In this document: piece by piece, positions 15,955-19,487 of the stretch
Position numbering within the stretch: the stretch's first letter is position 1
Layout: the number at the start of each line of letters is the position of its first letter
From: Longibacter salinarum
GTDB lineage: Bacteria; Bacteroidota; Rhodothermia; Rhodothermales; Salinibacteraceae
Direction: 5' to 3'
Length of the DNA: 64,000 nt
Assembly: GCF_002554795.1 (NCBI RefSeq)
Contig: NZ_PDEQ01000001.1
Coordinates: 186,001 to 250,000, forward strand
Program-made: the position numbers and the translations under genes
Notes under the pieces: generated by a model
Databases searched by the model: none
What the model saw: the letters and a program-made list of their open reading frames with translations, nothing else
What the model was told of the DNA's origin: nothing

Positions 15955-16394
15955 ATGGCTACGTGTGAGGTCTGCGGCAACGAACACCACAACACCTTCG
16001 AAACCCACATCGACGGAGAGCAACACATCTTTGACAGCTTCGACAACCTGTTTGGCGGATAGGTCGCGAAACGTAAGGACACTTGTTCATGCCTATCATA
16101 GAACTGACGGTGACCCTTTCGCGGTGACGCAACAGGCACGCTGCGCAGGATCGATCAAACCTTGTATCGTGAGCGTCGTGAGGACTGAGCGTTGGGAGGT
16201 CCGTACCGTTGGATCGCCGAAGGCTGTCCGCTAAACAGGTTCTCGAATGTGCTATTCAGGCTCTGGCACCCAGGTGCCATTACTGTGGCGTCCGTATCAT
16301 AGGTTACGGGGCTGAGAGCGAGGATCATCTCTTCTGCTGCTCGCATTGCGCACAGCTCACAGGCGTGACCGGCCTGAAAGATCGATTGGCTTAG
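15955..16394 (+). pseudogene. Small Cys-rich zinc-ribbon protein gene, split by a miniature element
   Basis: The 5' part (ATG at 15955) begins MATCEVCGNEHHNTFE and stops after 35 codons at 16062 inside an inserted element. The 3' part resumes at 16243 and encodes ECAIQALAPRCHYCGVRII, a CCSHC motif and a stop at 16394. Removing 16044-16242 plus one copy of the TCGA target duplication joins the halves in frame as DSFECAIQ. This gives a protein of about 79 residues with the paired Cys motifs (CEVC, C..CHYC, CCSHC) of a small metal-binding family. No other frameshift or stop is seen, so the disruption looks recent. The intact function is unknown. Confidence 0.8.
16044..16242 (-). mobile_element. 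MITE-like element, copy 1 (199 bp)
   Basis: Terminal inverted repeats of 15 bp: AACCTGTTTGGCGGA at 16045-16059 and TCCGCTAAACAGGTT at 16227-16241, with 14 of 15 bases complementary. A 4 bp target duplication TCGA flanks it (16040-16043 and 16243-16246). It has no coding capacity and no transposase. It is related over its whole length, in opposite orientation, to the copy at 18562-18761. It is inserted in the zinc-ribbon gene. Confidence 0.85.
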
Positions 16395-18553
<2,159 letters not shown>

Positions 18554-18561
18554 CGTGATGA

Positions 18562-18761
18562 GAACCTGTTTTGCGGACAGCCTTCGGCGATCCAACGGTA
18601 CGGATCTCCCGGTGGTCGGTCCTCGTGACGCTCGCAACACAGGGCCTGGTTGATCCCGCCCACAATGTCTACTGCGTCATTGCGAACGGATCACCACCAG
18701 GCGTATGACCAGGCATAAACGGCTGCACTAATTTTTTCACGTTTCATCCGCCAAACAGGTT
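18562..18761 (+). mobile_element. MITE-like element, copy 2 (200 bp), inserted at the atpQ start codon
   Basis: Ends GAACCTGTTTTGCGGA (18562-18577) and TCCGCCAAACAGGTT (18747-18761) are inverted repeats. The flanking target duplication is ATGA (18558-18561 and 18762-18765), which contains the atpQ start codon. The first 45 bases match copy 1 (reversed) with about two differences; the middle is more diverged. No coding capacity for a transposase. Confidence 0.87.
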
Positions 18762-19061
18762 ATGAAAGAGAAACCCGACGCGGAGGAGGAGTTTGCGCGG
18801 ACGATCCACGCAAAGGAGCAACGCAAGGCCGACGCCCGCGAACGGAAGCGGCCGGGCATTGTGTTCGGGATGGGCATGTTCGGGCTCGTCGGGTGGTCCG
18901 TCGCCATCCCGACGCTTCTGTGCCTGGCTCTCGGCGTCTGGATTGATGCCCGCTACGAGACACGGTTTTCCTGGACGCTCATGATGCTTGCTTTTGGGAT
19001 CATGCTCGGCGGCATGACGGCCTGGTACTGGGTGCGTGAGGAAAGCCGACATAACCGATAA
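18762..19061 (+). CDS. atpQ: N-type ATPase subunit AtpQ (AtpI-like)
   Basis: 99 residues. A charged N-terminus of about 35 residues precedes two membrane helices (about 37-62 and 70-90), as in AtpI-like assembly proteins. AtpQ is a membrane protein specific to N-ATPase operons and may help assemble the rotor ring. The ATG is part of the ATGA target duplication made by the element just upstream, so the 5' leader is now element sequence; AGG in the terminal repeat lies a few bases before the ATG and might serve as a weak ribosome site. Position between atpC and atpR fixes the identity. Confidence 0.88.
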   Translation: MKEKPDAEEEFARTIHAKEQRKADARERKRPGIVFGMGMFGLVGWSVAIPTLLCLALGVWIDARYETRFSWTLMMLAFGIMLGGMTAWYWVREESRHNR

Positions 19062-19172: not shown

Positions 19173-19487
19173 GTGATAAACGACATGACGTACGGATTGC
19201 TGCTTCTTTCTGCCCTCATTGGCGGCGTCGCACTGGGGACCTTTTACTTTGGCGGACTCTGGTATACGGTTGAACGCATACATGACGTCTCTCATCCGGC
19301 GTACCTTCTGGCCGGAAGCTTTCTGGTGCGGGCTGTCGTCGTTCTGTCCGGCTTTGTCGGCATCACCTACGCATTCGGATCGCGGCTGGAGATCGTTGGC
19401 ACGTGCCTTCTTGGCTTCATGATGGTTCGTCTCGTGCTCGTTCGCCGATGGGGTCCCGTGCCACGCGCCGCTCGTCCGTCGGGGTGA
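19173..19487 (+). CDS. atpR: N-type ATPase subunit AtpR
   Basis: 104 residues from the GTG at 19173, or 100 from the ATG at 19185. Three membrane helices are predicted; the conserved FYFGGLWYTV and the Arg within the second helix (SFLVRAVVVLSGF) are typical of AtpR, which is unique to N-ATPases. The Arg has been proposed to interact with the rotor-ring carboxylate. A gap of 111 bp to atpQ is unusually wide for this operon, and I see no gene in it. Confidence 0.9.
   Translation: MINDMTYGLLLLSALIGGVALGTFYFGGLWYTVERIHDVSHPAYLLAGSFLVRAVVVLSGFVGITYAFGSRLEIVGTCLLGFMMVRLVLVRRWGPVPRAARPSG

Follow-up and report, generated by a model that had tools for sequence, protein, structure and literature searches.

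How does an operon gene stay readable after a transposon has landed in its start codon? The atpC-atpQ junction of Longibacter salinarum raises this question, and we analysed it within a stretch of 64,000 nucleotides of the genome (the window). We consider it highly probable that a MITE with IS5/IS1031-type ends inserted at the atpQ start and that the start codon was rebuilt, that the insertion took place before the split from a same-genus relative, and that the copy in the window was later refreshed. The event is of an ordinary kind; its neat detail is the rebuilt start codon, and the difference in decay between the sister genomes was unexpected.

The interrupted atpC-atpQ junction

The insert lies among genes for AtpD, AtpC, AtpQ and AtpR, which form an N-ATPase operon, encoding an ion pump driven by ATP. 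On the plus strand, atpC, encoding the epsilon subunit (18155-18553; PF02823, E=4.6e-15), is followed by atpQ (99 codons, 18762-19061 from the rebuilt ATG; PF09527 ATPase_gene1, E=1.3e-13) and by atpR (19173-19487; PF12966 AtpR, E=1.9e-17), which confirms the operon type. AtpQ and AtpR are encoded between atpC and atpB, as in other N-ATPase (N-type F0F1) operons, whose order is atpD-C-Q-R-B-E-F and which include the PF09527 and PF12966 subunits. In those operons atpC and atpQ usually overlap or lie tightly together, whereas the junction in the window is broken by 208 nt. The atpC stop codon TGA (18551-18553) is followed by CGTG, an ATGA (18558-18561), the insert, a second ATGA (18762-18765) and AAGAG. 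Deleting the insert together with one repeat in silico restores stop-CGTG-ATGAAAGAG, a gap of 4 bases. The ends of the insert are inverted repeats of 15 nt, 93% complementary in a repeat search (18563-18577 on the plus strand and 18747-18761 on the minus strand), and the right one gives the sequence immediately 5' of the atpQ start. The longest frame noted inside the insert has 31 codons, and there is no transposase gene, as is expected of a MITE. This predicted frame (18558-18653, plus strand) opens at the orphaned original ATG (18558-18560) and ends at a TGA at 18651-18653. For atpQ, the frame listing holds no in-frame start further upstream, leaving the rebuilt ATG as the sole start of the full-length frame, and the ortholog in the same-genus genome G001 (the MAG GSL.Bin3) aligns from residue 1. 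The original prediction had described the ATGA on either side, the 4-base gap left on removal and the course of the 31-codon frame, and all three are as it gave them; it was also right, in our judgement, that the ancestral junction was tight and that element sequence now stands where atpC and atpQ were coupled.

The MITE family, its ends and its target

The insert belongs to a dispersed, high-copy family. The end motif has 188 matches in the 4.41-Mb genome and none for a reversed control, and a family profile built from 55 copies finds 140 matches in the same genome, 5 in G001 and 8 in G006; other members of the taxonomic family hold short elements with related ends. Full copies measure 170-217 bp and have a mean pairwise identity of 70%; in the 55-copy alignment, conservation is highest at the two ends and over the left third. 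The family has both terminal inverted repeats and a target-site duplication and is apparently undescribed in the literature searched. These repeats, duplications and dispersed copies bear out the original reading that a MITE-like element has inserted into the start codon of atpQ. A second copy in the window, on the minus strand upstream of atpD (16044-16242), is flanked by TCGA on both sides and splits a small CxxC reading frame; without the copy and one TCGA (window 16040-16246), the two parts, MATCEVCGNE...DSF and ECAIQALAPRC..., join without a gap into a peptide that has no Pfam match. Elsewhere in the genome, seven copies stand head to tail with a 197-base period (L095:405-1785; G000 C5:265016-266396), an array that has grown by recombination rather than insertion, since neighbouring copies share one end. 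One copy in the window's genome (L012:1500-1700) and one in G001 (L111; C201:9011-9210) are 87% identical, with no similarity found beyond the element, while operon third codon positions of the two species are about 61% identical, a likeness that could mean that the element moved from one lineage to the other once they had separated.

We compared the flanks of 65 copies as repeats at the TNA offset, one base beyond GGTT. The flanking repeat is best described as three bases, T-N-A, which are exactly repeated in 39 of the 65 copies and have the form TNA on both sides in 46. An exact 3-bp repeat occurs in 59% of the non-array copies, compared with 24% when the right flanks are shuffled, and a 4-bp rule modelled on the ATGA at atpQ was rejected, since at its own offset the flanks agree over 4 bp in just 18% of copies, whereas 59% agree over 3 bp at the TNA offset. 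Of the 65 copies, 57 end in a purine, and the consensus takes the form GAACCTG...CAGGTTR, where R is G or A. At atpQ the duplication is thus the 3-bp TGA at 18559-18561, within the original ATG, and at 18763-18765, whose TG finishes the rebuilt start codon. The element is therefore the 201-nt non-coding stretch from 18562 to 18762 on the plus strand, GAACCTG...CAGGTTA, as placed by the 55-copy alignment and the 65-copy borders. Given this frequent terminal purine, the rebuilt ATG most plausibly takes its A from the end of the element itself. The site in G001, with GTGA at the left border and ATGA at the right, fits TGA as the repeat. The original prediction of an ATGA duplication around an element at 18562-18761 that regenerated the ATG thus holds for the flanking ATGA, the left end and the regeneration itself, and needs correction on the length of the duplication, on the right end and on the view that duplication alone supplied the codon.

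A TGA target entered in this orientation leaves RTGA, a ready-made start, at the right border, and other copies lie at gene starts as well. At L067, a small gene conserved in 8 of 9 relatives searched begins with an ATG at the element's last base; at L023 the ATG precedes an internal Met of an ABC transporter gene by 10 codons, and at L091 it precedes one of a YhbY-domain gene by 14. At six further copies (L015, L018, L024, L059, L061 and L088), the duplicated TNA, as TGA or TAA, is exactly the stop codon of a long frame (about 180-490 codons within the stretch examined), so stop codons too are targets of the family.

The ends and the target point to a parental transposase of the IS5/IS1031 type. 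Members of the IS1031 group of the IS5 family such as ISLrh, which has the ends GAACCTGTCTAGTATCT and 3-bp TNA repeats and was found inserted at TGA (PMC12016507), share with this MITE ends that begin with GAACCTGT and a 3-bp TNA duplication, TGA included. The MITE differs from that group in its 201 bp without a transposase and in ends that diverge after GAACCTGT. A cognate full-length IS or matching transposase was not found in the searched genomes of the taxonomic family. DUF4096 insertion sequences do occur there, one (L154) with GAGGCTGTTTGGTA-type ends and another (L168) flanked by a TCA duplication; none has GAACCTGTTTGGCGGA ends, nor do the sole DUF4096 match and the DDE_Tnp_1 loci of the window's genome. 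As none of these insertion sequences carries the MITE's ends, the family may have lost its mobility in this genome. MITEAba12 of Acinetobacter is likewise short, non-autonomous and present in many copies, and it differs in its 113 bp, its 9-bp duplication and its parental IS (PMC6382973). Some adjoining genes take their first codons (MQQS) from a MITEAba12 copy, with the start located within the element (PMC6382973), whereas in our MITE it spans the border between element and duplication.

The sister copy and its unequal decay

Whether relatives lack the insert, a check proposed with the original prediction, has a divided answer: it is absent outside the genus (G017, G016 and G022), whereas the same-genus G001 site is occupied. 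There, on contig JAAAOT010000107, a profile built without the atpQ copy detects a decayed family member in the identical position and orientation (43 bits, E=6e-13). Outside the genus the atpC-atpQ gap is 6 nt in the more distant G017 and 57 nt in G016, and the stop of atpC overlaps the start of atpQ at seven distant N-ATPase loci; these sequences were read by eye, as were the junctions of L035, L039-L041, L043 and L044. G022 has a 192-nt, unrelated, repeat-rich spacer at the junction (L034, about 1297-1488), so that this junction was broken at least twice within the taxonomic family.

The insertion is most likely older than the split from G001, because the atpQ copy is, among the 65, the nearest to the G001 copy, shares 14 of 27 derived states with it (mean over copies, 18.5%) and falls with it on one side of a branch in the tree (support 89/59). 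On this sequence comparison the insertion is most likely shared by both genomes of the genus rather than specific to one strain. The two copies have since fared very differently. With six outgroup copies for reference, 6-13 changes fall on the window's copy and 48-54 on the G001 copy, while operon third codon positions have changed equally in the two lineages (175 and 174). Unequal decay of the copies beside equal change in the operon calls for conversion, re-insertion or selection rather than plain inheritance. We rate conversion by other copies as the most likely of the three: in a genome that holds about 140 matches, recombination with other copies has probably renewed the one in the window, and the seven-copy tandem array shows that copies of the family recombine.

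Re-insertion would mean two independent events, an old one in the lineage of G001 and a recent one in that of the window, with both elements entering one and the same TGA in a single orientation. The window's copy does look as young as others (85% identical to the consensus; terminal branch 0.057, median 0.12), the G001 loci orthologous to those of the start-proximal copies L023 and L067 give no match to the family, and the atpQ and G001 copies have few private states in common (1 of 5 at a frequency of up to 5%), which leaves room for a second arrival. Such a history is nevertheless unlikely: a hit on the identical base in the identical orientation has a chance of about 1-2% by our rough estimate (140 and 5 copies, some 20,000 non-coding TNA sites), and the closeness of the atpQ copy to the G001 copy also tells against it. 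That the junction simply holds an ancestral intergenic leader, with no mobile element involved, is scarcely credible. The original prediction had set the same conserved 200 bp in all relatives against an insertion. G001 has about 200 bases at the junction too, so within the genus the place is shared; its copy is only 64% identical to the window's, hence not conserved, the insert is absent outside the genus, and about 140 dispersed relatives with inverted repeats and target-site duplications refute this reading.

Selection enters if the insert works as an atpQ leader, for instance through coupling by the 31-codon frame, and purifying selection in the window's lineage has kept its divergence low. 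The strongly unequal divergence of the copies, set against that of operon third positions, would suit this, as would the fact that in each species an open frame runs from the orphaned start (31 codons in the window; 30 codons from a GTG at the matching position in G001). An open frame so short is common by chance, however, and conservation between the window and G001 is not significantly higher over the final 20 bases than over the rest (p=0.33). The insert holds no promoter- or terminator-like site that we could find and no Rfam match, and a search for conserved RNA structure gave nothing beyond chance pairs (consensus fold -4 kcal/mol, one pair changed on both sides). The sister copy in G001, moreover, decays freely. 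We regard a working leader as improbable. A hairpin of the two ends that would hide the atpQ start was also considered and rejected; it forms in a fold of the 208-nt insert by itself, and no pairing of the ends is predicted in the mRNA context. Still less probable is the fuller proposal in which the right end of the MITE is a portable start (CAGGTT-RTG-A), target preference and terminal purine allow harmless entry into start codons, and the insert at atpQ has become an adopted leader, its 31-codon frame coupling atpC and atpQ translation under selection in the window's lineage.

Consequences for the operon

Our preferred explanation, a single insertion before the split followed by refreshing of the window's copy, would run as follows. 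A non-autonomous DNA transposon would have entered the TGA of the ATGA at the atpQ start; transposition would have duplicated the TGA, and the element's last A with the duplicated TG would have formed an in-frame ATG, so that the start was, on the best reading, rebuilt jointly by element and duplication, and the original ATG was left to open the 31-codon frame. As the ATG was rebuilt in frame, atpQ stayed readable, and its upstream context is now element sequence. The operon message most likely runs through the insert, with atpQ translated from the rebuilt ATG; that atpQ is still expressed by such readthrough we infer from the intact genes. The 31-codon frame could conceivably play a part, an idea that our results leave unsupported.

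The locus illustrates how the harm done by an insertion into an operon depends on the transposon's target rule: here a TNA target of the TGA type and a terminal purine restore the start codon. The two genomes together offer a natural test of how far a 200-base interruption is tolerated in an essential-looking operon, and of how the copies in a large MITE family keep one another young.
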